From the NCBI GenBank assembly GCA_002286715.1, contig NSJX01000001.1, positions 2,865,354 through 2,929,353 of the forward strand: DNA of 64,000 nucleotides, written 5' to 3'. Of the stretch, positions 2 to 62,511 are shown piece after piece (position 1 is the stretch's first letter; the number at the start of each line of letters is the position of its first letter). The translations under genes were made by a program, and so were the position numbers. Below the pieces are notes generated by a model. It was given only the letters and a program-made list of their open reading frames with translations, had not been told where the DNA came from and did not search any database. The stretch comes from Dentipellis sp. KUC8613. Lineage: Eukaryota > Basidiomycota > Agaricomycetes > Russulales > Hericiaceae.

Positions 2-3000
2 TTTGCATACGTTGTAGGGTGTATTGCCGCTGGGAAGAAGCCCTTCAGACTCGATGACTTGAATGTCTTGCTCGGTCTACGCGACGATTGCTATAACGAG
101 GTCCATCTTCCCGGCTCGGAGCCGTTCTCCATGGAGGGTGCAAGGCAGTTCATTTCATCAATCAGATCTCTTTTCTCTACGAGCTCTCCGTCTCTCGGTG
201 CCAATGGCCCGCTGCGTTTGGTGCATACCTCGCTCTTCGAATTTCTGACGGACAAGAAACGTTGCCCGGGTTTCTGCATTGATCTGCCCTACTGGAACCT
301 GGTGATCGCCATCCAGTGTGTGAAGACGCTCAACGAACGATTGGATGTAGAGATTTCGAACTCCGGTCAGCTGCGCCAGGACAGTATGGCAAAAGGACTT
401 ACGATCAGTGGTGCACTGCGCTATGCTTGCCAATTCTTCGTTCGACACATCAGCGATCTCGAGGACCGCCATGATAATATGTTGGTGTCTCAAATGACGG
501 TCTTTCTATCCAAGCGACTCCTAAGGTGGATCGAAACGATGACCGCACTGGGCCTCGAATGGCTGGAAAACCTAGAGATCCTAGTCACATCTTACAGCAT
601 GCCGCCGGAGTATAAACTTCTTGCTCAGACAACTACAGTAGAGGAAAAACTGGCTGCGATTGCTTCTATTGTAGGAGAAAGTGTCAAGCAGTTACCTAGC
701 GCTGGGACGTCTGGAGACGAGCCCGACGGCCCAGAGAATTTGTCTCCTGAAACATCGATTCTCTCTGCATCTACCTATGATTACGATCCCTCAGCCCTGT
801 ACGAGTACGTGGCGCCCTTTGATTCACGTAGCGACATATTTATGGATTGGAGCTACAATCCGGAGTCCACAAACCCACGTATGCCCACACGAAGCGAGGA
901 CGTGAGTGGAGTGGAGCAGGGAGCACAGGCTGAACCGATGACGGAGATCGACGAACACCAGATGCGGACAGCACAGGGAGGAGTGCAAGGTTCAGAAAGA
1001 ACGGTAGGTAGCAAGAACTTGTCGGAGCTCGAAGGTAGTCACTAATGAGATCCAGAGTGCTGCGTCCCCCGCCGCCCTTCTCGCTGCCGACATGTTTGTT
1101 CTGGATCCGTCGGTGATAGCGCGTGGGGCGGGACCCTCTTCTGTCCAAGAACCGGTAATCGAATTTGGTCCAGAAGATCTACGGCATCAATATGACAGCA
1201 TTCCTGAAGGTGAAACTCCTCTGCGTAAAGCTGAGGTAGTTGACACGGAGGAGCATGCACAAGAGCCGGGGTCCATAATCAGAATGCCGATACTCCCTCC
1301 TGGGGATAGATCCATTTCTAGAATGCAAGTCAGTGGCGAAAGTGAGTTACTCCCTTTGTGTATACGTGAGATGTTTTAAAAAGGGTCGGACACCTCCAGC
1401 GCGCAGCCCTTCTAGCGCGCAGCATACTCTGACTGGACCTCCTCCAAGCCTGACCGTGGAGTCGCACGATCTAGATTTCGCTTTTGACGCAGATGAAACC
1501 AAATATTTGGAGAGCTTGTGGCTTGGCGAACAATCCCCCAAAACCCAGACGCCGCAGCCTGCCGCCGAACCGGACAACTCAGAGGATGAAGCCATGATGG
1601 CTGCCAAACAAGCGGCCCGCGTCCGCTCAGAACAGGTTCCAATTTTACAGGACCGTAAGTCGTTTCCTGAAGGCTTTGACTACTTTCTCACATACCTTCG
1701 AAGCTCGTCCCCCTACCAACATCATACGTCCCCCAGGCCACCATGAGGTCCTCCAATTTTATTCTCAGACGGGTATCTTCAGGTTCCGGGAGCAGACATC
1801 GCAGCATGGACAACAACCGGGGCTCGTGACCGATGCTGTGACTGACAACATGGAAGAACGGGATCAACGTACGGCGTCGCAATATGTAGATGAGCAAGGT
1901 GACACGGATAGCAATCGGCGTCAAGAAGAAGGTGAGCACCGTGTCTGTTCCCTATTCCTTCTCTTTTTAATGGGACGTTTTCCGACACGGACGCTGTAGC
2001 GACTACTCTCGTCGACTCACCTGCACCCTCTTCCGACTACTCTCTTGCTTGCTCTCCAGAGAGGTCGGAAATTATGGCACCGAGTCATTCGAAAGTCGAT
2101 GCGTGGTTCAGAATGAGTAATATACTCGAAAGCCAATACTATAGATACGAAAGCGCGCAAAGGGTGCGAGGTTTGCATCACCACTCCCCTTCGCTACTGA
2201 TGTCTATCACAGAGCATCGAAGCCGCCGTCACGATGGCGATAGAGGGTATCAAATTGGTCGATGGAGAGGCGTGTCGCCCAATATTTGAGGACAGCGCTT
2301 TCGTCCTGTTGGAGATCTGGTATGCTCTAGAGAAGCTCGATGTGCGTAGCAAAATTCGACTGGTTGGATTGAACTAACGAAACATGGGTGATAGGACCCT
2401 CAATACAGCTTTCTGGAGTTAGCAACACGCTGCGCGGACGTCCTGCGTGTAGCATACGAACTGTATGACCAGAGTACCATCGTGACGAGCTCGATGACGG
2501 AGGCAGCAGACAGTCTATTTCAGTGGGTCTCTCCTTGTCTAGTATTTGCGCCCTTCGTTAATTCTGCGCAGGTGTTTCTCGCAAATCCGTGAGATGTTCA
2601 TCCTCAAACGGAGACAACAGCCTTTTGTCCATTACGACCCTGGAGACGAATACATTCCATCCTGCTCCGAAAGGCTGTTGCAGATCACGCAGTCTCTCCA
2701 GGTATGTGGCATCGTCGACTACGTCTTCCACTCACTTCATCTCATAGCGTGTTGGGTGACTTCTTTGTTTTGATGCAGATTTTCACCCAGCTCCAGCGGC
2801 ACGACAGATTTTCGAGCACGCGGCAAGCGCTGCTGGACATGCAAGGTCTTGGGATGTCCAATGCGGACACTCAAGAAAGACTCCGAGCGTTAGCGCGGAA
2901 GCTTCTGGCTGGCAGGGACGGCAACGGCGCGGATTCTGGCGCACTGATGGGAGGCTCTCCTGACGATGTCGCGTCAGTTTTACGCAGCGTCATGGAGTCC

Positions 3001-4040
3001 GAAACACAGGAGGGCATAAAACCGCGCGCAGGCGTACGAGTGATCTCCAAGCATGATGTCGACGCCATGCAGAAGATTATGGACCATGCTGCGGATCTTT
3101 ACAGAGGCACCTGGAGCTCACGCACAGTCGCCATCAGGATGCTACCGTCGTCCGCTCTGTCTCGGGATCGCTTCGAGACCGTCACCGACAAGTGGTGGAA
3201 GCTCTCCGATCCCAACGTCCTGCCGCTTCTCGGCGTATCAGACCCAACGGACCCGGACTCAGCGTACACTGTCACCCCGTACTGCGAGCGAGGAAATCTC
3301 GTGCAATATCTCAGGAGCACGCCGGAGCTAGGCGATGCGGATATTCTGCAGATGATGACAGACATCGCGTCGGGGTTGGAGTACTTGCATGAGAAGGGAA
3401 TCGCACATGGGAATCTTCAGGTATGTGCGAAGGTCCCTTGCTCTTCATCGCGAGTGGAGTGCTGAATCGAAGTAGGGGAAAAACGTGCTGGTAGAAAGTG
3501 ACCTCAATTGTCTCATCGGGGGCTTCTTTCACAGTAGCTTCGCAAATCCCGCAGAGGCGAGCGAAGGCGAGAATTCTAGCCTCCGGTCCGGTACGTCAAT
3601 TGCTATAACGCTCATTATTACCTACCCACAACGCTGATTGACTCCGGAGAAATGACCATGTGGTACTCCCCCGAGATCTTAGCAAGCGGCGATGCATTCA
3701 CGCCGCAAGGAGATATGTACGCCTTCGCAATAGTCTGTACGGAGATCTTGACGAAGGGAGTGCCGTTCTCGCCGGAGCCTTCCCCCTTGGACACAGCGCT
3801 CACCATCGTCCGTGGTACGTGACATTTTCTTCCGACAAGGCAGCGCACTTATGTTGAGCCGCGCTCGCAGGGGAACACCGGCGCCCCGCGCTGCCACCCA
3901 GTGGCCTTTTAGACGGAGGGTTAAAGGACGTGATTGACATATGCTGGGCCGACGCTCCCGGGACACGCCCTGCCTCTGGAGAGGTTAGAAACATGCTGCG
4001 GGACATCTGGGACAAGCTGGGATACGACGGGGCCGAATAA
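2..4040 (+). CDS. NLR-pseudokinase paralogue A (5' end outside window)
   Basis: The window opens inside a long coding exon (frame starting at base 2). It encodes the C-terminal part of a NACHT protein, with the Agaricomycete NACHT signature 'LVHTSLFEFLTD' near 215-255 and 'SGALRYACQFFVRHI' near 405-450. The NACHT exon ends at a donor near 1002. Linker exons follow (about 1055-1940), then the exon with AWFR (2060-2155), a helical-bundle region (2210-2870) and a kinase fold (3040-4040). Kinase landmarks seen: 'VAIRM' in place of VAIK, 'HEKGIAHGN' in place of HRD, 'CLIGGFF' in place of DFG, then 'MWYSPEI', 'MYAFAIV' and 'ICWADAPGTRP'. The catalytic Lys and both Asp residues are absent, so it is called a pseudokinase. 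Introns are 50-70 bp and interrupt the kinase just after HGNLQ, as in B-D. The stop at 4038-4040 is supported by alignment to B. The function, sensing coupled to a signalling or death module, is inferred. The closest relative in the window is B. Confidence 0.8.
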
Positions 4041-4715: not shown

Positions 4716-7700
4716 ATGGACGAGGAAGAAAGGTGCGCTCTCAGGAGGAGTTTATGCGATGGCTTATAACTTACCATGGGTTCATCACAGAGTCATCGAT
4801 CTCACAAGTGCGTATACAATCTGGTTCCAGGCACTCGATGATCTTACGATCATACCCGTGTATGCGTGTGGACCGTCCTGCCAGTCATTCGGGCCCGTGA
4901 TTTGCCTCCTCCGCGACTATGGACCTCTTTACTGTCGTTTGTTTTGGTAGCGCCAGGGGGCAGAGTCTTGTTCCGTACAGACGCGGTCGGTGGGCGGAAC
5001 CCAACGTGGAATGAAGTCTTCAATATCAGGTAAAGCTTCCAGTGCTTGCGGATCCGAGGAATTCTCAGCGTTATCTCTCCATCCCTTTAGGCATGCAATC
5101 CTGTCACCTACAATTCGGCTGCAAGTCTTTCATAGTCCGAACTCTTCCGAGATGGTTCTATTAGGAGAAGCGAACGTTCTTGTCGATGCTCTGTTACGCG
5201 ATGAAGTAAATGGTGTGTTCAAGTAACTATTTCGTTATGTATCCCTTGGATGAGGCTGACGATAGTGTTATCCAACTGTAGAGATTCGGTGCAGATTGGC
5301 GAAACCGGGACTGAGGCTTCGTCGAAATCGCGGCGAGCTATTTATCTCTGGAAATGTCCGTATCAATGTAGCCGGAGTTTCCTCCCCTGAGCGCCCAAGT
5401 CTTTCTGCTTCTGGGGAATCAGAAGGCGATATACAAGCCCCTGGAGGTATGTGCACGTTCTTATGACCGCACGTAGTACGACTCTGAGAGGCTCATATTT
5501 AGCAGGCGGCGGCGCGTCATCTTTGCATTCGAGCCATCCTGCAGCGTCTGGGCTTGGGCCTCCCCCGGGCCTGTTCCAAACCCTTGCCACTCATCTAAAT
5601 CCTGCGTCGTTACCATCAATCGAGTCCGATTCTGCAACGTTGTCTGTAGCACTTGGTCAAGCAGAGACCTGTGTGAGCACCCTATCAGCTCCTTCATTAC
5701 TGAAAACGGCCAGTTCTTCCACGGAAGGCTCGGACAGTGGCACGAGCAGTGACTTGTTGCATACCGCCGGCGATGTCTTGTCTAATATACTCGAGAGGAT
5801 AGAGCGAATTGGCGACGTATTTGCTGAGGTAAGAAATTTCCGATTACCCTTGGCGATAGCATTGGTACATAAACTACAGGTTCATCCATACGCGAAATTA
5901 GCTTGGGTAGTTCTCAGCAGTGGCTACAAGGTTCGAGCGTCGGTTTCGTCTTTCTGCGTTCCCGTTGATAGCCTCGATTGCATAGATATTGAAGGCACAA
6001 GTAGATCGTGACGACCGAGTGCGAAACCTCTGGTGCACGGTCCAGGACGTTGTCGCATTCTTCGATGACGTAAAAGAGCAGCCCGCGAAGGCGACCTACT
6101 TACAGAAGGTAGTAGCGGACGTCGTGAAACAGATCTACGAATGCTGCCAATTCCTGAGGAAATATGCAGACCACGGGTTTGCGGGCAAGTAAAATTATCT
6201 GAGTCACTGGTAAATGTGCTCATTGGGTATAGGTCGCACTTTTCGAAATACGCTGAGCCTGCATAAGGATGATGCCTTGCAGCTTTTGATCGACTCGTTC
6301 CAAACGCTCAAGGAGCAGCTTAGCCGTGGTGTTAGTCTCGACAACTGGAAATGCCTCCGGGCCCTCGGCGACGATCTTGGCGAAATGAAAGACCAAAGTA
6401 CGTTCTGTGCCCTGACAGTTTAGGTGAACAGGATTTACTCAATTCGGTATATTGCAGTTCAAGAACTCTGGTTGTATACGCTGATTGAAGGTCAAGCGAC
6501 CATTGTTGAATGCGATACTACCCGAGGATGCCTTCCTGGGACCCGCACAAAGATGATTAACGACATTACGGGGTGGATCCACGATACGTCGCGCGGACGT
6601 GTTCTCTGGCTTTCGGGCCCTGTCGGGACCGGAAAATCGAGTGTCGCAAATAGCATTGCCGGGCTTCTGAAGGGAATGGGTCGTCTTGGCGCTAGCTACC
6701 GATTTGACAAACAGGTCGATCCATCGGCGTTCTTCCGCCAGATTGCATACCAGCTGGCGCGGATAGACAAGTCCGTCAAGGACACCATGCTCTCTGTGCT
6801 GACTCAGAGGGGCGATATTGCGTCTGCGGCCCTACCTGACCAGGCGATGAGGATTGTTGTACGGCCTCTTCATACTGTGGATCTTGTTGGCCCCGTGGTG
6901 ATTGTCATCGACGCATTGGATGAGATCAGGCACCGCGATTCACGCATCCGAGACGACATCCTTGCCTTCTTCTCGAACAAAGACTTCGCTCTCCCGGACT
7001 ATGTGAAGATTCTCATCACCAGCCGGGACAACCCTCACGTACGTTTGCATCTGCAGACACGAGGTGGGTACGAAACTCTCAGCATCGACGACTACGACGA
7101 CACTCCCGCCGATATCTGCCTTTTTGTCCGGCGCCGCCTGAGCGAGATTAAAACCCTCGCAGGTATCGCACGTGGTTGGCCTCCCGTCGGGGCAGACCGA
7201 AAGCTGGCAGAACGAGCTGGGCGACAATTCCAATGGGCATCTATAACTTGCCAGTTCATTGCGGAGAGTCCTCGCTCTCGGTTGGCTTTAGTGTTGTCTT
7301 CCAATGCCATCACGCACGATGGAACACGTCAGCTCGATGCGTTGTACAACTCGATTATACAATCCGCGTACGAAGCCAGGGGCTCTGACCGAAGCTACGT
7401 ATCGGAATTTAGATACGTTGTCGGGTGCATCACTGCCGGAAAAATCCCTTTCAGAACGGATGACTTGAACAGTTTGCTTGATCTAGAGGACGACTGCTAT
7501 AGCCAAGTCCAGCTGCCTGATCGGAAATCGTTCTATATGGAGGGCGCAGCACAGCTTCTTTCATCGGTCCGCCCCCTATTCTCCTCGACCACCACGACTC
7601 ATGGGCGTCCCGGCCCGCTGCATCTGGTGCACACCTCCCTGTTCGAGTTCCTAACGGACAGCGACCGTTGCGCGAACTTTTATATCGATCTGTCTTACTG

Positions 7701-10700
7701 GAATCTGGTGCTCGCTATCCAGTGTGTGAAGACGCTTAACGTGGAACTTGATGTGGAGGACAGCACTGGTCAGTCAAGGCAGAGCAATATTCTGACAGCT
7801 CGACCAGTCAGCGGGGCGTTACGCTATGCTTGTCAATTCTTTGCGCGACACATCAGCGAGCTTGAGAACCGTCAACACTACATGCTCATGTCTCAAATGA
7901 ATCTCTTTCTATCCAAGAGATTGTTCAGGTGGATCGAATTGATGCTTTCGCTCGGCTTCGAATGGATGGAAAGCTTAAATATCCTCACTGCGTCTTATGA
8001 CATGCCCGCGGAATACGAGCTTATCGCCAAGACGACCACCGCGGAGGAAAAAATAGCCGTGATAGCCTCTATTGTGGGCGAAGGTGTCAAACACTTGATT
8101 GACACTTCGCTAATTGCCGACGAGGAGGGCAAAAAGGCTAAACGGTATCATCTCGACTTGGAAGCGGAAGTAGATTCAGCTTCTGACGAGGAAACGGGGA
8201 TAGAGGGGCGTGATGAATCAGTGAGAACTGTAGGTGGCATTACAATTTTTTGACTGGCGGGGCGGAGGCTGATTGTATCTTGAAGATTGTTCCCAGCACG
8301 TCGTTCGACACAACATTCACCAAGGAGTCAACCGACGATTCATCAGCATCGCGGGTTCCTCTTCGGCCCAGCCGTCCTGCTTTGTCCAGTGACATGGACT
8401 CGCCGATGCCAATGCGGATTGGTCGCGTGTATTTCGCGACCTATCATCATTCGCCTACGAATTCGGATACATATCCGGAGGACGACCGTAGAAGCGAAGC
8501 GAACGTGGGGCGTAGGGGGCAGGAGGCCCGAGAAAAGCCTGTCCAGGATGCTCAGGAGCAGCCGGCCGTAGTGAGCGGCTCCACCTTCCCAGATTTTAGA
8601 CAAACGCTGATTGATCACAGAAAGCTGTACATTCTCAACTTTCACGAGGAGAGCTTAGTGTGTCTTCCCGGCCTTTACTGCCTCTTCATCCTCCAGACTT
8701 GCGGCGTACATCTTCGCCCCCGTTGGAGGATGCATGGATACCCCCTCCCGATTGGAGAGTTAACACGGCTTTTGAAGACACATTCCAGTATGAGGATGCA
8801 TTCTTGATTGATCCGCAACAGCCACTGTCCGAGGCAGACGATGCAGAGCATCAACTAGTATCGGACTCCAAATCGGCTAAACATGGCACCACGAGACCGA
8901 GGCCTGTAGTACGCAAAGAATGTAAGTGTCAAGGCACTTTGTTGGTTCCTTTTCGCGCGAAGCGGCTTGATCTAAATAATCTCCACAGCGCAAGCCCATG
9001 ACTCTACAAGCGACATCGAGTCTGGGGCCGAATCTCCCTCACGTCTGACCCTGGAGGAAGAGGATCTGCTACTATATGGCCCGACGGAACGCGAAGAACC
9101 AGAGGAAACCATGTCTGAAGTTCTACCGAGCAGCACAGCAGAGCAAGGACAGAGTATATCAAGTCGGAAGCAAGGAGTGGCTCCGCTTTATAGAAGCCTG
9201 AGAGAAAGCTTTACCAGCTACCAGCCTGAGGATGATGGTCAGCGTTCGTTTCCCTCATTTGCTCGAACTGTAGTCCGTGGGAAATTTTCTGACGAGTGCG
9301 ACATTTTTTCATAGATCTTTTTGACTTGGGTGAATCGTCTGGTGGTGCTTGGGAAGAGCCAACGCAGACAACTGATTCAAAGCCGCAATTCACATTGCAA
9401 GGGTCAGGACCCAACAAACTCTTCGCTTGGTTCAGAACGGGGAGAATCCCCAAAAGCCAGCATGTTAAGTACGCAAATGCACAAAAGGTATGGGTCGCGC
9501 CTTACCCTTCCGGCACGCCGCTCATAACTGTCACAGAATATCGAAGAGGTTATCACGCTCGCAATGGAGAATATTGAAAAAGACGATAAACAAGGCTCCA
9601 AGCCCGCTATATTCTCGGACGCAGCTATTCATTTAATGGAAATCTGGGATGCATTGAGGCGGCTTGACGTGAGTTTTCACAATTTTGGTGGCATACGGAG
9701 CCAAATTGACGAGTCATTTACCATAGGATCCACGTTATAAATATTTAGAGCTGACGATGCGTTGCACGGACGTGCTACAGGTAGCGTGCGAGCTGTATGA
9801 TCAAGGACCCACCGTCACCGATATCATGGAGGAAGCCGCCGAGAGCCTACTGGAGTGAGCGGCAATGTCTTTATCTCGAGCCCCCTTCCTATACTCATGC
9901 AACGCAGATGTTTTTGGCACATCCGGGAACTGCTAGCAAAGGAGAGGAAAGCGACTGCCACAAGGCGGTCTTCCAGATACAATCAAACGGAGAGACTGAT
10001 CATACCTTTTTCTGAGAGGCTGTCGCAGATTATGCAGTCGTTCCAGGTGTGTGGTGCCGTCCATCACGTTTTTCGCTTCATTGATTGTATGACTTCCTCA
10101 CGCTGGTATAGATCTCCACCCAGCTTCAGCGGCACGAGGTTTTTCTCGGCACGCGGCAGACACTGCTGGACCTCCAGGATCTGAAAGCGTCGGACGAAGA
10201 CACCCAAGAGCGAGTCCGAGCACTGGCGGAGAGGCTTCTAGCCGGCAGGAACGACGACGACAATCCGGGCTTGATAACTGAACCCTCTTCCGACGAGATA
10301 GCGTCGATCCTACGCAGTGTCACGAAGGGCGGCGAAGCAACAGTAAGCACAACGAAGAATATCAAAGCGCATGCAGGTGTGCGGGTTATCGCCAAGGGTA
10401 GCATCGGCGCCATCCACAGCATTGCGGGGGACACAATGGACCTTCACAAGGGCATCTGGGACTCACGCACAGTTGCCATCAGGATGTTCTTACCCTCCAC
10501 TAGTATGTCCCGGGACCGCTTCAAGCTGATCACCGACAAGTGGTGGAAGCTCTCCGACCCCAACATCCTCCCGCTCCTCGGCGTGTCGGACCCAGCCGAC
10601 GCGGATAGCATGTACACCATCACTCCGTACTGCGAGCAGGGGAACCTCGTGCAGTATCTTAGGAGTACACCTGATCTAAACGAGGCGGATATGCTACAGA

Positions 10701-11435
10701 TGATGATAGACATTGCGTCCGGGGTGGAGTACTTGCATGAGAAGGGAATCGCACACGGAAACATTCAGGTATGCACGCTAGTGCTGTCGTTGTCGTCGAG
10801 AATGAGATACTAAGCCCGCGCAGGGAGTGAATATACTGGTAGACGACGACCTCAACTGTCTAATCGGCGGCTTCTACCACAGCAGCCTTGCAATCTCAGC
10901 AGAGGCAAGCGAAAGAGAGAAGCACGGACTGGTTGAAAGTACGTTCGCTGCTTTAGCACTCATCATTTCTTCGCGTCATTGACTGGCTCCGAAGGGATGG
11001 CCATGTGGTACTCCCCCGAGGTCATAAGGAGCGCCGTCCGGTACACGTCGCAAGGAGACGTGTACTCCTTCGCCATAGTCCGCGCGGAGATCCTGACCGA
11101 GGGGGCGCCGTTCTCGCCGGACCCATTGGACCCGTCTGAATCCCCCCTGCTCAGGTTGCTCGACAGAATGCTTTCCGTTGTCCGTAGTACGTATCAGCTT
11201 CTTCCGACAAGTTATAGGGTTATGCTGAGCCGTGCTTGCAGGAGAGGACCAGCGCCCCGTGTTGCCGCGCACGGCTCTTCTCGACGGAGGGCTAAAGGAC
11301 GTGATTGACGCGTGCTGGGCCGAGGCTCCCGAGGCACGTCCTACCTCCGGAGAGGCGAGAAACATGCTGCGGGACGTCTGGGACAAGCTGGGGTACGATG
11401 ATGCCGAATGGGGAGAACGGGTGCTGGATTTTTGA
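4716..11435 (+). CDS. NLR-pseudokinase paralogue B: C2-NACHT-helical bundle-pseudokinase
   Basis: Complete gene of about 1.8-1.9 thousand residues and roughly 20 exons. The start is set by a 17-nt micro-exon (4716-4732) and a second 17-nt exon (4791-4807) that together encode MDEEERVIDLT; C and D share this arrangement. Domains in order: C2-like (to about residue 115, with 'GGRNPTWNEVFNI' and 'IRLQVFHSPNSSEM'), a Ser/Thr-rich spacer, a helical NACHT-associated module ('VHPYAKLAWVVLSSGYK', 'DRDDRVRNLW'), and NACHT in the exon from about 6458 to 8235 with Walker A 'GPVGTGKSS', Walker B 'VVIVIDALDEI' and 'ILITSRD'. An acidic or polar linker follows (8270-9240), then 'AWFRTGRIPKSQHVKYANAQK' minus its last residues, an MLKL-N-domain-like helical bundle (9537-10270) and a pseudokinase (10370-11435: 'VAIRMF', 'GIAHGN', 'CLIGGFY', 'MWYSPEV', 'DVYSFAI'). 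Walker motifs are intact, so ATP-driven switching is plausible, while kinase catalysis is not. Linker exon edges are the least certain part. Role as an intracellular immune or self/non-self receptor is inferred from NLR families. Confidence 0.85.
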
Positions 11436-14615: not shown

Positions 14616-15713
14616 CTACACAAGCCGCTTGGGCTCCTCGTTCTGCGCCGGCTCCACCTTAGCCTCGACCACCTTGGCCTCCTCCTTCACCTCCTCCTTT
14701 GCATTCTCCAACACCGGCTCTGCCTTGCTCTCCACCACGCTGGCCACCTCCTTTGCCTTTGCCTCGACCTTCTCCACGACCTCCTTCGCCTTCGTCTCTA
14801 CCTTCGCCTCGAGCACCTTCACCTCCGCAAGCACCTCCTTCGAGGCCTCGCTGACCTTCCCCTCCGCCTCTAGTGCCGCCACCCGCCCCTTCCCAATCGC
14901 CTCGCCAACCTTCAGCCCCGTCGTCTCCTGCACGCGCCTCAGCGCATGGCCCACCGTCTCGCCCGCGTGCGCGCGGCCCTGCTCCCACGCCTCCTGCGCG
15001 CGCGCGACCGTCATGGCGAAGTGCGCGCGGCCGATCGCGTGCTTCTCCGCGAGGCCGGGCGTGTAGCGCTCCTCGAGCTCGCCCGCGTACGTGGCGACGT
15101 TGTGCGACGTCTTCGGGATGAACTGCTGCGCGGCGAGCACGAAGAGCGTCGGCGGCGCGAGGATGCGCAAAGGCAGCCCGCGCGTGCGCGTGAGGATGGA
15201 GCCGGAGAGCGCGGCGATGCCCGCGTAGAGGACGCCGGGCGTGAGGGGCTCGTCGGGTGCGACGAGGGACTTGACGCGGCCTGTGGTGGGTAAAGTTTTA
15301 TGATTAGAAGTTTTGCAAAGGAAAGGTGGGGGTAGGATACGCACTTTCTACGGCCTGCTCGATCCCAATCCACTTCCCGATGACACCCTGCACCTGCGAA
15401 TGCGTGTCATTGAACACCCGCGTCGCGGCCCGTCGCGCAATGCCAATTTGCCTTTCAAGTTCGGTGGGCGACTCGACAACGATGATGTCCTGGTCGGGTG
15501 CTGGGTAGATGGAGAGCTGTATTTGGGTCAGCACATGTGCCGCATGGGTAGACCGGCAAGATAATACCTTTTCGCGCTCAGAGTCGGGCAACGACACGGC
15601 GACGGCTGTCGCAGCCGCCAGGAGCGTTCTTCGGGGCTACACGTCACAGCAAAGCAGATCAGACGAATGCTTTAATAGAACAGGAAATTACATACCATGC
15701 GAGCCCAGGACAT
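14616..15713 (-). CDS. MICOS complex subunit MIC26/MIC27 (apolipoprotein O-like)
   Basis: Likely inner-mitochondrial-membrane subunit of the MICOS complex, which holds cristae junctions. The start MSWARM at 15713 is followed by an intron and then 'RRTLLAAATAVAVSLPDSE'. A second intron near 15530-15567 leads to 'LSIYPAPDQDIIVVESPTELERQIG', which is the ApoO-family entry block (only part shown in frame). Next come 'IGKWIGIEQAVE', an intron, and 'GVLYAGIAALSGSILTRTRGLPLRILAPPTLF' (two membrane-type segments). The C-terminal third is an Ala/Glu/Lys/Val-rich, strongly helical tail (KVEAKAKEV-type heptads, about 14650-14900). Tail composition produces many open frames on the opposite strand, which are shadows. 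MIC26 versus MIC27 cannot be separated by eye. Confidence 0.8.
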
Positions 15714-44753: not shown

Positions 44754-47700
44754 ATGGAGCTGGAGGAAAGGTGCGTACACATATCGCGCTCATAAAACTT
44801 CCGACGTCCCCTCGCAGGCTGATGATATATCTCCAGGGTCATCGATCTTAGGAGTAAGTACAAGGTCGATATGTTTATTTCAGCGATCTCACCGCGAGGC
44901 TTGCGTGCACGTGTTGGCGATCAGTTATTCGAGCCCGCGATCTACCCAGGTCGCGACCATGGACCTTTTCCGTTAAGTCCTTCGTCCTGGTCACACAAGG
45001 AGGCAAGCAGCTCTTCCATACGGAGACTGTCAGCGGGCCAAATCCGGAATGGAACCAGCTCTTTGTCGTCAGGTAACGTTGCCAGGTTGTGCAGAGGCAA
45101 TTGATTGTCATATCTTCCCGTTCTTAGATCTCCGAGCGTTTTGTCCTCGATTCGTCTGCAGGTGTTTCATAGTTCGAATTCTTCTGAACGGATATTGTTG
45201 GGAGAGACGGACGTACTTGTGGACGCCTTGCTGCGTGATGAGGTGAACGGTATGTCGTTCCGCGCAGTGCTTCATCTGCATCTGGTTTGACGATATGCTG
45301 CTCTCGACAGAAGTCCGATGTCAACTCAAAAAATCTGGGATGAAGTTCCGCCGGAATCGCGGCGAGCTCTTCGTCTCAGGGAAGGTTCACATTGACCTCA
45401 CTGAGACACCTCAATCCGAAGTTCCTAGCATTCATGTTTCGCTTGAGCCAGGGAGCGATTCGGAGGGGCAGGGAGGTAATATCACTTCCGGTCACGCCGC
45501 ATGATGCCGTTCTGACTTCATTTCTAGAAGTCTCTTCGAACCCCGGAGCAAGTAACTCCGCCATAGAGCTTGGTTCTCCTTCCAGTGTATCTTTCGTTGC
45601 CCCTTCCCCGTCAAGCCCTGTTTCAGAACCACTGTTCGAATCGGAGTCTTCAAGACTGTCTGTGGCTGTCGACCAGGCGGAGGCCAGCGTCAGCACTTTG
45701 TCGGCACCTGCGCTACTCGAAAAGGCCGGCTCCTCCATGGACCGTATTGAAGGCGTTTCCGAGAGTGACCCGTTGCAAGACATAGATGATGTCTTGTCCG
45801 ATGTCCTCGATGGCATAGTACACATTGGAGATATGTTTGCGGAGGTGTGACATTCTCATCTTTATATCGCATGAAAATAGTTCCATTCTCATAAATCGCA
45901 GGTCCATCCGTACGCGAAATTGGCATGGTCAGTTTTGAGCGGGGGATACAAAGTAAGCAAACATCCTCTCGCTCTCGCACATGGTCGCTAATGACAATGC
46001 CCACCTCTCGTAGGTACTCAAGGGACAGGTCGAACGCGACGACAGAGTCCGAAGGCTCTGGTCCGTGGTTCGGGACGTGATTGCGTTCTTCAAAGAAGTT
46101 CAGAAACAGCCCATCAAAGCAGGATACCTGCAGCAAGTCGCAGAAGATGTAGTCAAACAGATCTACGAATGTTGTCAATTCCTTCAGAAGTATGCCGAGC
46201 ACGGCTTCTCAGGTGAGTAAAGCCCTTGACAGTGCTACAAGCATGCTTATCTTATGGGTCGTAGTACGGGCTATAAAGAACACCTTTAGCACTAAAGATG
46301 AGGATGACATACAGGTTATGACCGGCTCGTTCCAGTCGTTGAAAGAGCAGCTCGGCCGAGGCGTTGGCCTCGAAAATTGGAAGGGCATCAGAGCTCTCGG
46401 CAATGACCTTGGCGAAACAAAGGATCAGCGTAGGTGTTTCGAATTGAGATCAAAATCATTTCTCCTAACTTTCTACCATTGCAGTCCAAGATATCTGGTT
46501 GTACACATTGATCGAAGGCCAATCCACCGTTGTCGAATGCGATACGAGTCGCGGATGCCTCCCTGGGACACGCACGAAGCTGATCAGCGACATCACAGAG
46601 TGGATCCACGACTCTTCTCGCAAACGCGTACTCTGGCTATCCGGCGCCGTAGGAACAGGAAAGTCAAGTGTCGCTAACACCATCGCCGGGCTTCTCAAAG
46701 GACTGGGCCGTCTCGGCGCCAGCTTCCGGTTCAACAAGCAGGCCGATCCGTCGGCTGTATTCCGGCATGTCGCGTACCAGCTGGCACGGATCGACAAGTC
46801 GGTGAAAGACGCAATGCTTGCCGCACTGAAGCAGAAGGGCGACATCGCCTCCGCACCGCTGTCCGACCAAGCCATGAGGGTCGTCGTGGAGCCTCTGCAG
46901 GCGGTAGACCTGGTCGGCCCCGTGGTGATCGTCATCGACGCGCTGGACGAGATGAATCACGACGATGCGCGTGCGCGAGAGGACATCCTCACCTTCTTCT
47001 CTAGTAAAGACTTTGCGCTCCCGAAGTACGTGAAGATATTCATCACCAGCCGGGACGACTCGCATGTGCACCTGCACCTGCAGACGCGCGGCGGGTGCGA
47101 GGCTCTGAGCATCGACGATTACCGGAACACGCCTGACGATATTTACTTGTTCATCCGGCACCGTCTAGACGAGATCCGTCAGTTTGCACGACTCGACGAT
47201 GGCTGGCCTCCTGCGGGCGCGGACCGGGAACTGGCAGACCGCGCAGACCGGCAATTCTTATGGGCGTACATCACATGTCAATTTATCGCGGAAAGCCCTC
47301 TCCCGAGACTCTCTACCGTCCTATCCGCCGGGAACGCCACGCACGGCGGGAGCCATCAGCTAGACACACTGTACGACTCTGTCATCCAGTCCGCGTCCGA
47401 AGCCAGAAGCAACTCTCCCGCCTACGTCTCCGAATTCGGATACGTCATGGGCTGTATCGCGGCGGGGAAGACCGCGTTCACACTCGAAGACCTGAACGAC
47501 CTGCTCGAGCTGCGCGACGACCGTTACTCCGAGGTCCACCTCCCGGGGCGGGAGACGTTCTCCATGGAAGGCGCGGCGCAGTTCGTGTCCTCCGTCCTCC
47601 CGCTGCTCCGCACGGTCGCCACGCACCAGGGCACGAGCAGCTTCTGCCTCGCACACACGTCCCTGTTCGAGTACCTCACGGACGCCACGCGGTGCAATAC

Positions 47701-50700
47701 GTTCCACATCGACTTGCCGTACCGCAACCTCATCCTCGCGATCCAGTGCGTGAAGACCCTCAACGTGCGACTCGACGAGGAGAGGCCAGCGACGGATCCG
47801 CTCGAGGACGACGCGCCTGCTCACATCAGCGGCGCGCTGCGATATGCGTGCCAGTTCTTCGTGCACCACATCAACGAGGCGCAGGACCGCCAGCACGACG
47901 CACTCGTGTCGGAGATTGCGCTGTTCACGTCCACGAAGCTGCTCCGGTGGATCGAGACCGCGACCGCGCTTGGGTTCGAGTGGATGGAGAGCATCGAGAC
48001 ACTGGTTTTGTACTACGACGTGCCGGCCAAGTTCAAGCGCCTGGTTGCAGCGACCCCGGAAGAGAAGGTGGCTATTATATATTCCATTGTGGAGAGCGGT
48101 GTCGACGAGAAGGAGGAAGAGGAGGACGAGGAGGACGAGGAAGGAGAGGAGGAAGAGGAGGAGGAAGAGGAGGAAGAGGAAGAGGAGGAAGAGGAAGAGA
48201 AGGAAGAGGAAGAGCAGGAGCTAGCGGATATGAAACCAGGGGTCGATAATGACGGTGAAAGTGGCGAATCTGAAGTCGAGACAGAAGACGCTGAGGTATG
48301 TGCTGCTGTTATTCTGCTATCCGACAAGGCTGAAAGTTGACTTGCTCCGTGCCCTTTGCTTCTTTGAGGCTGCATCGGGCATTTCTATCCCGGATGCTGG
48401 CACTGACGAGGATGACCAGGACACCGCCGACGAGCTGTCTCAGGCTGATGCAAGTGAAACGGAGTCCACCTCCGATTCCACCGATTCCCCGCCTGAGGGC
48501 GCCGAAGACGATGATGCGCGACCCGCAGCCGGGAAGACGAAGGCAAGCGTACAGAAGGAACAGCAGTCTGCCCGCAGCTCGAGGGACGCTAAGGACCGTC
48601 AGCAGCGGTCAAGATTGCCAAAGACACAGGATCCAGGACGTTCGGATGGTGCGTATCTCCACCTCCTTCGCTGTTCTGGGTTACCCCCATCAGGTCATTC
48701 TGATGAATCGTGTTCACGGTAGAGCCGCCTCGCGCTCGACGTCAAACCCATACTTCCAGGACCGCAACAAACACAGACCCAAAGCATCTTCGAGCCTGGT
48801 TCAAGAAGCGTGAGCTCACCGAAAGCGAATTCGCGAAGTACGAGGAAGTGCGCAAGGTACGACCCGAATTGAACCTCTACGCCCCACTTCTACTCAAATA
48901 CCCTGCGTATCTGTATCTTTAGATGATGATAAGCAGTATCGCGGCAGCGGCGGGCCGCAACGACGTTGGCGACCAGCGCAGCGCCGTCACGAGAGCTGCC
49001 GTGCGCCTCTCCGAGATCTGGCGCGCTCTCGAGCGGCTCTCCGTGCGTTGCGACAATTGCCACTCAACTTGAAAGCAGCTGATACGAGAGTGGCTGCAGG
49101 ATCCTGATCAAAAATTCCTGGAACTGACGGGGCGCTGCGCGCGCGTCCTGCGTACCATATGCAGGCATCACGCCGCCGACAGCCTCGTGCAGGAGGCGGC
49201 GCGCGGGCTGTCGCGGTGAGTCCAGCGATGTGCCGTATCTGTTGGCACAGCTGGTGTCACAGTTCTAACGGCGTGTATCTCCCAGATGTTTCAAAGAGAT
49301 CCGAAACTTTTTTGCCGAGGAAGGGCAAGCCAGAGTCGCCGAGCAACACAATCATCGCCGCGAAAACCACGAGCACAGGGCCCGTTTCTTCTCACAGCTA
49401 TCTCAAATCGCCCAGTCATTCAATGTGCGTTCTCTACTCCTCTAGCACGCATGCTCCGCATCTTACACCACGTGCATCTGCCTTGACTGCAGGCGTCCAC
49501 ATCGCGCACCCTGCAGATCAGGCTACAAAGCACACGGCAGACACTTCTCGAATTGCAGGCTCAGCCCGACGCGAACACCGACGCCAGCGCGCAAGAACAG
49601 TTCCGCGAACTGACGCGCAGGATCGTCGTCGGCCGGACGCTCGGTGCGCTCGACGTCGTGGCAGTGGACGTGGCAGTGGATGTGCGTGCGCCACGCACGA
49701 GCCACGGCAGCACTGGCCACACGCACTCGCATTCGCACACACATCACACCGGCCCGCGCACCATCGCGATGCGCGACCTGCGCCTCCGCGAGACGCTCGC
49801 GCGGGGCGTGCGAGGGGGCACGTGGGTCCCCGCGGGCAAGGCGGTCGCAGTCAAGGCGGTGCGGTCGCAACGCGCCCTGAGCGCGCTCCTGCACCGGTGG
49901 TGGCAGCTCGCGGACCCGAATGTGCTGCGGCTGCTCGGCGTCGTGCACGCACCGCACGCGCCGTTGCACACGGTCACGGTACTCTGCCGGCGCGGGAGCC
50001 TCGTGCGGTGCTTGCGGGACGCGCGGGACCTGCAGGAGCCAGATTTGCTGCAGATGATGTGTGATGTTGCCGCGGGGCTGGAGTATTTGCATGGGAAGGG
50101 TATTGCGCATGGCAATCTTCAGGTAAGTCATGTATGCTGCACCTTCTGGGTTGTGATGCGATGCGTTTGGTGTCTACGGTGCAGGGCGAGAATGTGCTCG
50201 TCCAGGGCGACTTCAATTGCGTCATAGGCGGCTTCATGCACAGCGGGCTGGCCGCCACCTCAGAAAGGGACGATTCATGCCAATACGCCCTTCAAGGTAC
50301 GTTCGCTAGCTCCGTAGACTGCGCCGTTCGCTTCTCTCTGTGATAACACTCGTCATAGACCGCATGCTCGCATGGTATGCGCCGGAGGTATTGGGCGGGG
50401 GTGACCCATTCCGCCGGAAGGCGGACATGTACTCGTTCGCGATGGTGTGCGTGGAGATTCTTCGGCGCGGCGGTGCGCCTTGGCCGCGCGCCTCCAGGCA
50501 GGCCATGCGCGCCAATGTGCTCGGTACGACATTTTTGTTCCCCCCACACAATGTATGAGTTGTACTTGTACTCATTGATTTCGTAGAAAAACACAAGCGG
50601 CCACACCTTGATGCTAGCGATTTGCTGAATGGCGGGCTCAAGAAATTGATCAAGGCGTGTTGGTCGTCGGACCGCGCGGCACGCCCGACAGCTCGACGTG

Positions 50701-50756
50701 CTAAGACCCGTTTGTATACGATTCAAGACGAGTTGGGCTATGAAAGTGAGCAGTAA
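44754..50756 (+). CDS. NLR-pseudokinase paralogue C: C2-NACHT-acidic linker-helical bundle-pseudokinase
   Basis: Complete gene. A 17-nt first exon (44754-44770) and a 17-nt second exon spell MELEERVIDLR, followed by 'IIRARDLPRSRPWTF' and 'GPNPEWNQLFVV' of the C2-like domain. Next come 'IRLQVFHSSNSSERILLGE', a Ser-rich spacer, and the helical module ('VHPYAKLAWSVLSGGYK', 'ERDDRVRRLW'). NACHT carries 'GAVGTGKSSVAN', 'VVIVIDALDEM' and 'IFITSRD'. The NACHT exon continues into an unbroken acidic tract, the most extreme linker of the family (48107-48222). Then 'HLRAWFKKRELTESEFAKY', the helical bundle ('WRALERLS', 'FLELTGRCARVLRTI', 'CFKEIRNFF', 'FFSQLSQIAQSFN', 'RLQSTRQTLLELQ') and a pseudokinase: 'VAVKAV' keeps the Lys, but 'GIAHGN' and 'CVIGGFM' replace HRD and DFG. 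A His-rich stretch (HGSTGHTHSHSHTHHTG) precedes the N-lobe. Stop at 50754-50756. Confidence 0.87.
48107..48222 (+). repeat. GAG/GAA microsatellite coding for poly-Glu in paralogue C
   Basis: About 115 bases of nearly pure GAG, GAA and GAC codons give roughly 38 residues of Glu with some Asp, in the linker between NACHT and the helical bundle. Slippage could change linker length between strains while keeping the frame if units change by three. Confidence 0.9.
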
Positions 50757-56702: not shown

Positions 56703-59700
56703 ATGAAAGAGGACAGGTACGTTTCATTCTGATCTCCAAATGCGACCCTGAGCACGGCTTACGATCTGCGATACACCCGCAATAGGCTCATCGATCTCAA
56801 AAGTAAGTCTTGGTTCAAGTCCTCCTCGGGTAACTCAATTCATATATGCGGATCGGCGATGTTGACAGTTATCAGGGGTCGAGACATACGCTCTTCGTGG
56901 CGATGGAAGTCTTCAATGCGTTCGTTCGTCTTGGTGACACCGGGAGGGAAGCAGCTGTTCCGTACGGAGGCCGTCGGCGGGCAGAATCCAGAATGGAACG
57001 AGGTCTTCGTCATCAAGTGAAGTTGTCAAACTGTTTTTCTTTTTGCATAACTGATGAATATACTGCCTGCTGAAGACCTCCAAGCTTGTCGGCCACAGTC
57101 CGACTGCAGGTTTTTCGTAGCACAAACTCTTCCGAGATGGTTCTGTTAGGAGAGACAGACGTTCTCATCGATTCTCTTCTGCGCGATGAAGTGGACGGTA
57201 CGTGCTGTCGACTTCCCAACAATTCCCGCTCCCTATAGCTGTTGCGATGATCTGCAGAAGTCCGCTGCAGACTGGCGAAGCCTGGCGTCAAGATCCTTCG
57301 GAATCAAGGAGAAATATTCGTCTCGGGAAAGATCCATGTCGATGGACCCATCCCGCCTTCAGATGCGGGCCCGACGCTTTCAACTACCTTAGGATCGGCG
57401 GATGACTCATTGAGTATGTTCTCGAAAGGTATGGCTTGCCAGGGATCGCATTGCGTCGTACGACTCAGGTCTCAAATTTTCAGAGGCCGTATTTGTGTCG
57501 CGCCCGCATTCTCTCGTATCTCGAACTGCGCTTCGCGTGGAAGCCCCGGCCAAACCGCACCTGTCTGCATCTCCACCGCTGCCGGATGCCGAACCTTCGC
57601 AACCGTCGACCGCGTTGCTCAATCAAGCTGCAGATAGCGTTGGCGCTCTTTCGGCACCTCCGTTACTCGAAAAACTCGGCTCATCTACGGGTGGCGTTGC
57701 CACTGATGATGTCTTTTCTCAAATCTTGGAAGGCATGGTGCATTTAGGCGATGCATTCGCGGACGTGCGGTTGCATTGTTCATTCCACGACACCAGATGT
57801 TGACCGTGGGTTGCCAGGTTTACCCCTACGCAAAAATTGCCTGTGTCGTTCTGAGCAGTGGGTACAAGGCCCGTATCTATCTATTCTCATTCGATGCCGC
57901 ATTTCACGACCATTCTCACAGGCACTTAAGAGGCAAGTGGAGCGCGATAGCAGAGTTCGAGACCTCTGGAATACAGTCCAGGACGTCGTCACGTTCCTCG
58001 ATGATGCCAAGACGGAGCTTGGTGAAGCGGAATATCTGAAACAAGTGGTGTCAGACGTGTTGAAGCAGATTTATGAAAGCTGCCAGTTCGTTGTGAAATA
58101 TGCAAGACACGGCTTCGCAGGTAATCGTTGTCTTGCATTTTTTGCGCAATTCTCATTTGCTGCAGGAAGGACTCTTCTTAACACCTTGAATCCCAGCAGT
58201 GACGATACCATCCGGCTCCTCACCGACTCGTTTCTGACGTTGAAGGAGCAGCTAGTCCGAGGCGTCAGCCTCGAGAACTGGAAGGCTATCAGATTGCTCG
58301 GAAACGACCTTGGCGAAGCAAAAGACCAAAGTGGGTTCTTCACGTCAGTGTCTCTTCGGTCTCATTCTAACTTGTGGTTGAGTCCAAGACATCTGGCTGT
58401 ATACGTTGATCGAAGGCCAATCGAACGTCGTTGAGTGTGACACCAGCCGTGGATGCCTCCCTGGAACGCGCACGAAGCTCATCAACGATATCACCGAGTG
58501 GATCCATGATCCTTCGCGTGGCCGTGTACTCTGGCTATCTGGTGCCGTCGGTACGGGGAAGTCGAGCGTCGCCAACACAATCTCTGGACTTCTAAAGGGC
58601 TTGGGCCGTCTCGGTGCTAGCTTCCGGTTCGACAGACAGCTGGATCCATCTGCAGTTTTCCGACAGATCGCATATCAGCTAGCACGAATAGACCCATCGG
58701 TAAAGGACGCAATACTCTCAGTCTTGAAGCAGAAGGGCGATATCGCATCTGCGCCGCTATCCGACCAGGCTATGAGAGTCGTCGTGGAGCCTTTGCGGAC
58801 GGTGGACTTGGTTGGACCTATCGTGATCGTAGTCGATGCGCTGGACGAGATCAATCATGCCGACCTACGTGTTCGCGATGACATCCTCAGCTTCTTCTCG
58901 AACGAGGACTTTGCGCTTCCCGAGTTCATGAAAGTCCTCATCACCAGTCGAGACGACCCACACATCCATCTGCATCTGCAGACGCGCGGAAAATTTGAGG
59001 CGCTGAGGATTGATGACTACGAGGACACCCCTGCCGACATACTCTTTTTCATCCAGCACCGTCTAAGTGAAATTCGCACTCTGGCAGAGATCGCCAAAAG
59101 CTGGCCTCCCGTCGGCGCCGATAGAAGACTCGCAGAGCGTGCCGACAAACACTTCATATGGGCACATATCACATGTCAATTCATTGCGGAGAGCCCCCGA
59201 TCCAGATTGCCCCTCATCTTGTCCACGAAGGCTTCTTCTCACGACGGAAGTCGTCATCTTGACGTCCTTTACGACTCTGTGCTTCGAGCTGCATTCGAGA
59301 CGAGGAACCGCAATCCGAAGTATCTTTCTGAGTTCAAATACGTCGTTGGCTGCATCGCTGTTGGGCGGAAGAGCTTCAGACTCGGGGACCTCAACGACAT
59401 GCTCGGTCTGCGTGACGACTGTTATCGCGAGATTCGCTTACCTGGCTGGAAGCCCTTCTCCATGGAGGGCGCGGAGCAGCTCGTCTCATCTGTACGCTGC
59501 CTGTTCCACGAGACGATAATGCCGAAGGGAAGCAACGTCGGCAGCTTCCGCTTAATCCATACTTCCCTCTTCGAATTTCTTTCCGACGAGGAGCGCTGCC
59601 GCGACTTCCATATCGATTTGCCCTATTGGAACCTTATACTTGCCATCCAATGCGTAAAGATCCTCAACAGGCGGTTAGACGTAGAGATCCCCGGCGATTC

Positions 59701-62511
59701 GGATCAGTCGTATGAAGACGATTCACTGGGGGGTCTGCCGGTCAGCGGTGCATTACGCTACGCCTGTCAGTACTTCGCACACCACATCAGCGACGCCTCG
59801 GACCACCACAATAATCTGCTTGTGTTGGAAATCACATCGTTCAGCTCCACAAAATTGCTGCGTTGGATCAAGACAGCAAGTAATCTCCGGCTTGAATGGA
59901 TGGAGAGCCTCGATATTCTCCTTGCGTTGTATGATCTTCCTCAGAAATTCAAGTCGCTTGGAACGGCTACAGCCGAAGAACGACAGTATTCAATTGCCCT
60001 CATGATGGATGAGAGTCTGGACCGGCTTTCTGGTATGGAATTGACTGTCGATAAGGGAGAAAGCCGATTGCGAGGACGTTATAGCAGTGAGTGACTACCC
60101 TTGTTGTCGTGCATTGAGTATCTGAGCTCTGAACATCTCCAGTGATTGCCTCAGATGTCGCTCTCGATGCTTCGGCTCCAGATAGACTTCGTCCTTGGTT
60201 TAGGGCGAGAGAGGTAGCTCAGAGCTCGAGCGGGAATTATACATATGTGCACAGGGTGCGGGCCGTCGACCACTTACCTAGAGCCATCCTGATGTCCGTT
60301 TCAGATCATCGAGCATACGGTGGCGTCAGTAATGCACGATACCGACTTGTCCGATGCGGCTTTTCTTCTGCTGGGTATCTGGGACGCCCTGGAGAACCTT
60401 TTCGTGAGTAACGATGAGCTTGACTAGATTATAGCAAATTGACGGGGCAAATATGTCAGGACCCTCGCCAGCGATACTTGGAGCTGACAAGACATTGTAC
60501 ACAAATCTTGCAGAAGGTGTCGAAATTGTATCTTCGGGGCTCCACCGTCAACAAGTTCTTGTATGAAGCCGCCAATAATCTGCTTCGGTGAGTGCGCTTA
60601 CTAGGTACCTAGCCATTCTCTAAGCTTACGTCCCGTAGATGTCTTGAAGAAATTCATGCAGTATATATTCGGGAAGGAAAGATGACCCACGCGCAACAGG
60701 CGAACCGACAGCCCGAAATGAAAGGAAAAATAGCCAGTTATGCGAAGAAGTTATCGAATATCTCGCGATCCTTCCAGGTTCGTGTCGTCATGAATGGTGT
60801 TCTTCAAATCCGTTGACTCATGATATGTGGCAATCCGTTTGTCCTGAAGACTCATATGAGGCTTCAAAGCACGCGCGAAGCGCTACTCAATTTACAGGAT
60901 CTAGATGATTATGAGGCCTATATGCAGATTCACGAGCTGGCAAAGCGAGTCCTCACGAGCCAAGAAGATGACAATGTCGAGTTTGGGATCGACACAAACT
61001 TCCGCCACAACCTCACCTCGCTCCTTCGCCGCATTACAGAAGGAGCCGTATCCGGCGGAGCTAATTCTGGTCTGCAAGTTATCACTAGATACGATCTCGA
61101 TATAGGCAAGGTGCTTTCGAGAAGTGCCGACAACACTGTATACAGGGCCGTATGGCGCGATCTGGATGAACCGGTCGCTTTGAAGGTGTTTTCGGACACT
61201 GCTGTCTCCCGCAGACACTTCGGGACTATTGTCAAAACGTGGTGGAGGCTCTCCGATCCCAATGTGATACAGCTCTTAGGTGTCTCTGCCGCGACAGATC
61301 TGGATGTGCTGTATACTGTCGTTCCGTACTGTAAACTGGGGAATCTTGTCCAGTACTTGAAGAGTATGCCCGAACATGTGGAGACAGATCTACTTTGGAT
61401 GACGCACGATGTCATCTCGGGACTTGAATATCTGCACGAGAAGGGCATCGTGCACGGGAACCTCCAGGTACGTGTGCTCCGCTGCTACACGCCGACGGGA
61501 GAATTGACGTTATCTAGAGTGAGAATGTATTGGTCACGGACGACTACACCTGCCTTCTCTCGGGATTTGGTGATGGTCTTGCATTCGTGTCTTCGGCATC
61601 TAGTCAAAACAGGGCGCCGTACATCTTACGAGGTAATAATTTCGAGGAGCACTCATCAAGCGACCCGCTGACGTATTTCACAGATAAAATGCTCGGATGG
61701 TATGCTCCGGAGGTTTTAGAAGGAGACCATCCATTCAGACGAGAGGCGGATGTATACGCGTTCGCTATGGTTTGTGTGGAAATAGTCAAAGGCGGGATCC
61801 CGCCTTGGCCGCCGTTCTCCAGAGACATGATGCACGCCACAGTATGCGGTACGTAGTCAAGCTTTTCTTGTTTACTGACATAGTTACGCCGCAGAAATTC
61901 TACGGCATAACTATGAATAGATTGATTCATGCCTATGCTGATTGGTACTTCTAGTGAAGCGAAGACGTCCACGACTACCACCCTCTACCTTCCTGGAGGA
62001 CAAATTAAAGGGTGTAATTAGGGCATGCTGGGCGTACGATTGCAAGGCCCGCCCAAATGCGAGCAATGCTAGAAGTCTCTTGCGGGATGTCCTGGATGAA
62101 TTAGAACATGCAGATGCGGAACAAGAACAGCCTGATTTCGAAGAGGCAGTGTATCAGGGTGAGGCCGATGAGCATGAGGAGTACACGGGCGAGGAATATG
62201 TGGGCGAGGAATATGTGGGCGAGGAATACGCCAGTGAGGAATACGCGGGCGAGGAATACACGGGCGAGGAATACACGGGCGAGGGATCTGAAGACGACGA
62301 AGGTGAAGGAGAGGAATACACAGGAGAGGATGACGATGCGCCAGGAGAGGAAAGCGGAGACGAGGACGAGGACGAGGATGAGGACAGCTCAAACGAGACA
62401 GATCACGGAACGGTATTGAACGACGGTGCCGCAGAGGATAGCCGGACTATTACAACTTATGACGGATCTACTAGTAGTGCTCACTCTACGTATTATCAGT
62501 GGAATGAATGA
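56703..62511 (+). CDS. NLR-pseudokinase paralogue D: C2-NACHT-helical bundle-pseudokinase with EEYxG tail
   Basis: Complete gene. The 14-nt first exon (56703-56716) and a 17-nt second exon give MKEDRLIDLK, then 'IIRGRDIRSSWRWKSSMRSF', 'GQNPEWNEVFVI' and 'VRLQVFRSTNSSEMVLLGET' of the C2-like domain. Next: spacer, helical module ('VYPYAKIACVVLSSGYK', 'ERDSRVRDLW', 'FVVKYARHGFAG') and NACHT ('GAVGTGKSS', 'IVIVVDALDEI', 'VLITSRD', 'LIHTSLFEFLSDEERC'). The linker is short here. 'RLRPWFRAREVAQSSSGNYT' opens the helical bundle (about 60200-60900). The kinase fold keeps 'VALKVF' but has 'GIVHGN' and 'CLLSGFG', so HRD and DFG Asp are lost; 'GWYAPEVL' and 'DVYAFAMV' remain. After the C-lobe the protein continues for about 120 residues with seven five-residue EEYxG repeats and a Glu/Asp-rich tail not found in A-C. 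Stop at 62509-62511. Confidence 0.87.
62176..62280 (+). repeat. Seven-unit 15-bp coding minisatellite (EEYxG) in paralogue D
   Basis: Units of 15 bases starting GAGGA(A/G)TA encode EEYTG, EEYVG, EEYVG, EEYAS, EEYAG, EEYTG and EEYTG in a row, followed by an imperfect EEYTG after a short gap. The repeated Tyr in an acidic setting could be a phosphorylation or binding array; that is a guess. Confidence 0.95.

Follow-up and report, generated by a model that had tools for sequence, protein, structure and literature searches.

A dead MLKL-type module at the C-terminus of C2-NACHT receptors in Dentipellis: a candidate integrated decoy or switch

The stretch of DNA analysed here (the window; 64,000 nucleotides of Dentipellis sp. 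KUC8613, contig NSJX01000001.1, positions 2,865,354 to 2,929,353) is the end of its contig and carries four copies of one gene family, designated A, B, C and D, of which copy A is cut by the window edge. The products, referred to below as the fused family, are predicted to join a C2 domain and a NACHT domain to an MLKL_N-like helical bundle and a pseudokinase at the C-terminus. Animal MLKL is built from a helical bundle, following helices and a kinase fold without the catalytic Asp and the DFG Asp. A predicted bundle, following helices and a kinase fold lacking both Asp residues recur in the fused family, whereas the animal protein (PDB 4btf) is separate, possesses neither NACHT nor C2 and gives no significant direct sequence match to the family.

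Several described fungal systems share part of this architecture. Basidiomycetes possess NLRs whose N-terminal domain is of the MLKL-like (BaMLKL), HeLo or Goodbye type (PMC9815663), and domains of the HeLo, Goodbye and MLKL types are often part of the NLR N-terminus in an 'all-in-one' arrangement (PMC9815663, PMC12881547); the view taken in the original prediction, that a separate HeLo or amyloid partner is usual for fungal NLRs, does not agree with these accounts. The BaMLKL receptors resemble the fused family in combining an MLKL-type bundle with NACHT in one protein, the bundle having an additional N-terminal helix and a short helix between the third and fourth. In those receptors the bundle lies at the N-terminus and no kinase is described after it (PMC9815663), whereas that of the fused family is C-terminal and followed by a pseudokinase. 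HELL-domain proteins pair a bundle with a kinase or pseudokinase, as does the fused family, and the statement on them in PMC12881547, where MLKL is described as a pseudokinase, mentions no NACHT. Basidiomycete C2-NACHT NLRs exhibit the same N-terminal C2 and central NACHT (PMC4986451), but in the fused family an MLKL-type module stands in place of the C-terminal repeats. Sordariales NLRs with C-terminal kinases, proposed to be integrated decoys, provide a fungal parallel both for the position of the kinase and for the decoy idea; their kinase resembles CHK2/PRD-4, whereas that of the fused family is a dead MLKL-type module accompanied by a bundle (PMC12258605).

Fungal NLRs bearing an N-terminal MLKL-type bundle, proteins of the HELL-kinase type and NLRs with a C-terminal kinase are therefore each already in print (PMC9815663, PMC12881547, PMC12258605), and it is the C-terminal position of the bundle together with its attached pseudokinase that is unusual in the fused family. 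The C2-NACHT-MLKL_N bundle-pseudokinase combination was not found in the accessible portion of the literature on NLR, MLKL, kinase and fungal combinations and on kinase expansions, a scope that excludes subscription papers and preprints. No literature on Dentipellis with NACHT was found.

The copies, and the parts of copy B, the whole gene model used for reference, are as follows (window coordinates).

2..4040, plus strand: copy A, 3' part; its start lies outside the window and other models give it in two pieces, P0017 and P0012
4716..11435, plus strand: copy B, whole gene model of 21 exons and 1836 amino acids, a splice model with one open frame
4791..5212, plus strand: C2 domain of copy B (residues 8-98), Pfam C2 at 30.8 bits against a cut-off of 22
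5503..6397, plus strand: N-terminal helical region of copy B between C2 and NACHT, holding the GC-AG intron 6185-6232
6458..8229, plus strand: NACHT exon of copy B, Pfam NPHP3_N, with Walker A GPVGTGKSS at 6616-6642 and Walker B VVIVIDALDE at 6895-6924
8230..9415, plus strand: variable linker of copy B, with predicted introns, the least certain part of the model; deposited model P0018 stops inside it at 8804
9416..10240 (ends approximate), plus strand: AWFR motif, MLKL_N-like four-helix bundle and next (brace-position) helix of copy B, from profile match, shared introns and an AlphaFold2 model of the copy D homologue
9668..10112, plus strand: introns of copy B after 9668, 9854 and 10046 (phases 0, 2, 0), homologous to introns of stand-alone MLKL_N kinases
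10350..11435 (start approximate), plus strand: pseudokinase of copy B, with HGNIQ (10754-10768) for HRDLK, GGF (10866-10874) for DFG and VAIR for VAIK
44754..50756, plus strand: copy C, 1625 amino acid model, Pfam
56703..62511 (end approximate), plus strand: copy D, deposited as one protein of 1601 amino acids, DENSPDRAFT_792196 (P0019)

The coordinates 4716..11435 given for copy B in the original prediction proved correct, with an ATG at 4716, a stop codon ending at 11435 and a frame open throughout. The domain order it had proposed was likewise recovered: the model reads C2, helical region, NACHT, disordered linker, MLKL_N-like bundle and pseudokinase, and Pfam returned, from N- to C-terminus, C2 (expectation value, E, 3.5e-7), NPHP3_N/NACHT (4.1e-21) and a Tyr/Ser-Thr kinase domain (2.5e-32). 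The four strings quoted there from copy C are all present in the model of that copy (44754-50756), for which NPHP3_N was matched at E 2.9e-23. Copy B has 20 introns, GT-AG in all but one GC-AG (donor at 6185); this intron (6185-6232) is required for the open frame, and at the same position copies C and D are modelled with GT-AG. The reading of copy D combines exon calls with deposited P0019, and one of its donors, near 57865, is not GT. The NACHT exon of copy C ends with a long glutamate run (approximately 48100-48300), and the C-terminus of copy D carries acidic repeats of the GEEY type (approximately 62150-62400).

Pfam gave no match over cut-off in the interval between NACHT and kinase of copy B, and no C-terminal superstructure repeats (WD40, TPR or ANK) in copy B, copy C or P0020, a Hericium relative. 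Judged by its sequence, the family is a STAND/NLR-type NTPase, as identified by NACHT with Walker A and B motifs, but its predicted architecture is atypical and not that of a canonical tripartite NLR.

The single polypeptide of the original prediction is borne out by these gene models and by three one-piece deposited proteins in which C2, NPHP3_N and kinase occur together: P0019 (copy D, 1601 amino acids), P0001 (Dentipellis fragilis, 1849 amino acids) and P0020 (Hericium alpestre, 1414 amino acids). At E<=1e-30 the protein search yielded at least five proteins, of which the remaining two are split models for copies A and B; each of three protein searches scored approximately 8,000 candidates, and one of the three missed P0019, so that the count of fused proteins is a lower bound and other fusions may exist. 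It might be argued that adjacent NACHT and kinase genes have been merged by the gene models alone. The other models of copy A (P0017, P0012) and copy B (P0018) are indeed split, ending within the linker or beginning behind the bundle, with the copy A kinase deposited for Dentipellis sp. KUC8613, and copy C was absent from the protein-search matches listed. However, one-piece proteins are deposited for three species and the exon pattern is alike in all four copies. In copy D the NACHT exon is separated from the next exon by a 56-nucleotide intron, with some 14 residues from there to the helical or bundle region, which leaves no space for a gene boundary; for this copy separate genes are already contradicted unless the deposited model is wrong. 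Separate genes are accordingly regarded as very improbable. Although exons 8286-9487 of the copy B linker are a prediction, the C2-NACHT-kinase fusion is, on these models, real and common to two genera, Dentipellis and Hericium, both members of the Hericiaceae (Russulales), because single proteins holding all three domains are deposited for copy D, D. fragilis and H. alpestre.

Outside the fused family, the kinase part found its best matches in the same genome among stand-alone kinases, six of which were modelled (L053-L056). Four automatic models (L053b, L054, L056a and L056b) are rough beyond the catalytic loop, and L054 is without some residues after helix 1; weaker kinase matches (C45, from the motif scan alone, C117, C61, C95, C143, C36 and C97) lay outside the modelled set. 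Pfam MLKL_N was matched in all six stand-alone bundles at E<=1; among the four scores listed, one (33.5 bits) exceeded the cut-off of 27 bits and the others (14.3-15.5) fell short of it. These BaMLKL-type proteins are homologous to the fused family in bundle and kinase domain and agree with it in intron positions and phases. They differ in having no NACHT fusion, in retaining HGDLK (6/6) and in possessing 48-49 residues before helix 1, as against 27-38 in the fused copies. Their DFG motif is present in five of six, the remaining one reading NFG. A further model, K_L059m, proved to be a questin oxidase-like neighbour without a kinase and was dropped.

When a profile of five fused regions was aligned with a profile of the six stand-alone bundles using hhalign, a score of 87 was obtained (probability 97.9, 131 columns), whereas 100 column shuffles gave 22 or less, reversal of the profile 16.6 and comparison with the N-terminal helical region 16.2. 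The six fused sequences, Hericium included, scored 38-59 singly against the stand-alone profile. Three introns occupy identical alignment columns (24, 67 and 114, copy A against L053a) in phases 0, 2 and 0, and a further intron lies directly after HGNxQ in four fused copies and directly after HGDLK in four of the six stand-alone models. Profile match and shared introns are independent lines of evidence that the entire module, bundle and kinase together, shares its ancestry with the stand-alone genes. The kinship to MLKL put forward in the original prediction is thereby supported, and the second helical region is, by sequence comparison, a diverged MLKL_N-type four-helix bundle. The homology to the MLKL_N superfamily runs via the stand-alone kinases of the same genome, at least one of which exceeds the MLKL_N cut-off. 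The fused bundles are approximately 20% identical to the stand-alone bundle taken as reference, and no direct Pfam match to MLKL_N (PF22215), HeLo or RPW8 was listed for them; PF22215 was found in none of the five profile members at E<=5 and not in P0020. Scattered sub-cut-off Pfam matches to unrelated families were disregarded. The N-terminal helical region was considered as a second MLKL bundle and rejected, there being no profile link (probabilities 0.4 and 0.8).

An AlphaFold2 model of the copy D region, computed from 12 alignment rows of which some are single exons (mean predicted local distance difference test score, pLDDT, 72), comprised four long helices, preceded by an additional N-terminal one and followed by another, with a short helix separating the third of the four from the fourth (14-36, 40-55, 61-84, 90-114, 118-123, 125-164 and 168-187). 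This agrees with the layout of basidiomycete MLKL-like domains, in which an extra N-terminal helix and a short helix between h3 and h4 are described (PMC9815663). In a fold comparison Foldseek returned 306 matches at E<=10 and none at E<=0.001, MLKL was not in the best 50 of the 306, and it was absent among the 50 VIA-align matches listed. A model of the Hericium bundle and pseudokinase (mean pLDDT 47) was not used. Profile searches of the PDB with the fused-region profile (A2) gave nothing related. With profile A3, MLKL 4btf was third of three (E 2.4), and with joint profile A9 sixth of 12 weak matches (E 0.25, not significant); neither was counted as proof. The five matches ranked above 4btf are presumably designed bundles, an impression taken partly from their names.

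Every one of the six fused sequences (A, B, C, D, P0001 and P0020) has H[GR]N[LI]Q and [GST]GF as its kinase motifs, so that the loss of the HRD and DFG Asp originally noted applies to every copy and to both relatives. Copies A and B have Arg at the position of the VAIK lysine, which the other four sequences (C, D, P0001 and P0020) retain. As read from sequence, all six thus have in common with MLKL a kinase fold that lacks both the catalytic and the DFG Asp. In the module tree, fused and stand-alone sequences fall on two sides of one branch with support 100/98, consistent with a single capture before the Dentipellis-Hericium split; the Hericium row is long and its placement unsure, and the composition of copy C is unusual. 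The ratio of nonsynonymous to synonymous substitution rates (dN/dS) in the N-terminal part of the kinase was 0.32 for the A-B pair (dS 0.77), which points, on thin support, to a captured module kept under constraint.

Three accounts of what the module might do were weighed. That preferred, with a probability of roughly 0.45, is that the captured dead MLKL-type copy is an integrated decoy or a switch gated by phosphorylation or a ligand. A fungal NLR-type receptor with C2 and NACHT would have taken up, at the C-terminal sensor end, a whole bundle and kinase module from the genome's own MLKL_N-kinase family. In the captured copy the HRD Asp is replaced by Asn and the Lys by Gln, and the DFG Asp is lost, as is part of a hydrophobic stretch before helix 1, yet selection appears to have kept the module. 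The trigger would be an invader able to bind or modify kinases of the MLKL type (virus, bacterial or fungal effector, or non-self partner cell), whose action would alter the dead module; alternatively, a live sister kinase would phosphorylate the module. The altered module would release the NACHT ring, which may then gather the N-terminal C2 and helical domains at the membrane, leading to cell death. The fusion, the homology of bundle and kinase, the missing catalytic residues and the conservation across two genera are seen in the sequences; the sensing role, the membrane output and the cell death attributed to the fused receptor are what we infer. The output of an NLR lies at its N-terminus and its sensor at the C-terminus (PMC12258605), and a decoy or switch was ranked first because the dead module replaces the C-terminal repeats, that is, the sensor end, and is shorter before helix 1. 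The segment is 10-22 residues shorter in the fused copies, in 6/6 at the site of the hydrophobic 'LLQFAPVPGL'-type stretch of the stand-alone genes. As expected of an integrated decoy, the module has separate homologues in the host, namely the six stand-alone MLKL_N kinases of the genome. The Sordariales kinase-NLRs serve as precedent and support the decoy reading (PMC12258605).

Alternatively, the fused protein might be an all-in-one executor whose C-terminal bundle is the killer: NACHT oligomerisation would cluster the bundles, and the pseudokinase would restrain them until triggered, as in MLKL, whereupon the membrane would be permeabilised. The order of bundle then pseudokinase is that of MLKL, the fused bundle is homologous to MLKL_N, the predicted helices fit a bundle with a following helix, and 4btf appeared, without significance, among the weak PDB matches noted above. 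Set against this are the shortening before helix 1 in every fused copy, the location of the bundle at the NLR sensor end and the absence of an MLKL_N Pfam match from all six fused bundles. The membrane-acting effector in cis of the original prediction is hence possible but, as stated, unsupported, the hydrophobic part being shortened in 6/6 and the module lying at the sensor end. A number of observations nevertheless weigh against a decoy or switch. Maximum hydropathy over 15 residues was 0.67-1.40 in fused and 1.27-2.12 in stand-alone sequences, and since these ranges overlap, a loss of membrane activity is a guess. MLKL is itself a pseudokinase, so that catalytic loss suits an executor equally, and the N-terminal helical region matched no known effector family. 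The dN/dS evidence is thin: the other kinase pairs with a defined dS gave 0.16-0.60 at dS above 1. In 8 of 18 pairs dS was undefined. In two stand-alone kinases (L056a, L056b) WD40 repeats lie in an open exon that reaches the MLKL_N bundle, with an HGDLK kinase behind it; a sensor in cis with a live module therefore occurs in this genome, which keeps the executor strong as the main rival, albeit one judged rather unlikely. Under a further account the pseudokinase module would be a docking platform linking the NLR to live MLKL_N kinases via bundle-bundle contact, recruiting and activating an executor in trans. At least six related stand-alone kinases with HGDLK are retained in the genome, and the fused copies retain bundle core and kinase fold, but their bundles share only some 20% identity with the stand-alone reference, and docking appears doubtful.

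A different type of sensor-MLKL fusion, WD40-MLKL_N-kinase, was observed at L056 (G000:C27:319800-329700; 1127-1915 and 5650-6477) and possibly at L053 from 4322. A further C2-NACHT copy at L057 (G000:C143; 2742-3569 minus, 5743-8037 plus) is cut at approximately NACHT residue 270, and its two parts lie on opposite strands, a state that an inversion or an assembly error could produce; the bundle-kinase query gave no match within the 9.9 kilobases examined there. The window also contains kinase fragments related to the module, on the minus strand at 54080-54581 and 62997-63113, and neither is flanked by a bundle or NACHT match. Neighbouring reading frames scanned with Pfam gave a match in 4 of 10 and are ordinary genes:

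12069-12962, minus strand: methyltransferase reading frame, Pfam
14619-15347, minus strand: apolipoprotein O-like reading frame, Pfam
36453-37280, minus strand: zinc-binding dehydrogenase reading frame, Pfam
51706-52806, minus strand: questin oxidase-like reading frame, Pfam

In animals the NLR-type sensor and MLKL are separate proteins. The fused family represents a natural fusion in which evolution has joined an NLR-type sensor with MLKL-type parts in fungi, with live sister kinases in the same genome. Hericiaceae NLRs probably either guard their own necroptosis-like machinery with a dead MLKL-type bait or carry a killer behind an NTPase, and if this is true, whether as bait or as killer, there would be a direct physical link within one protein between an NLR and an MLKL-type bundle and pseudokinase. 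The fused modules, which are dead, and the stand-alone ones, which are live, have introns that can be traced and form a matched set ready for comparison. With the fusion and the live sister kinases at hand, two questions become testable: are fungal MLKL-type kinases executors that invaders target, and do fungal NLRs possess integrated decoys?

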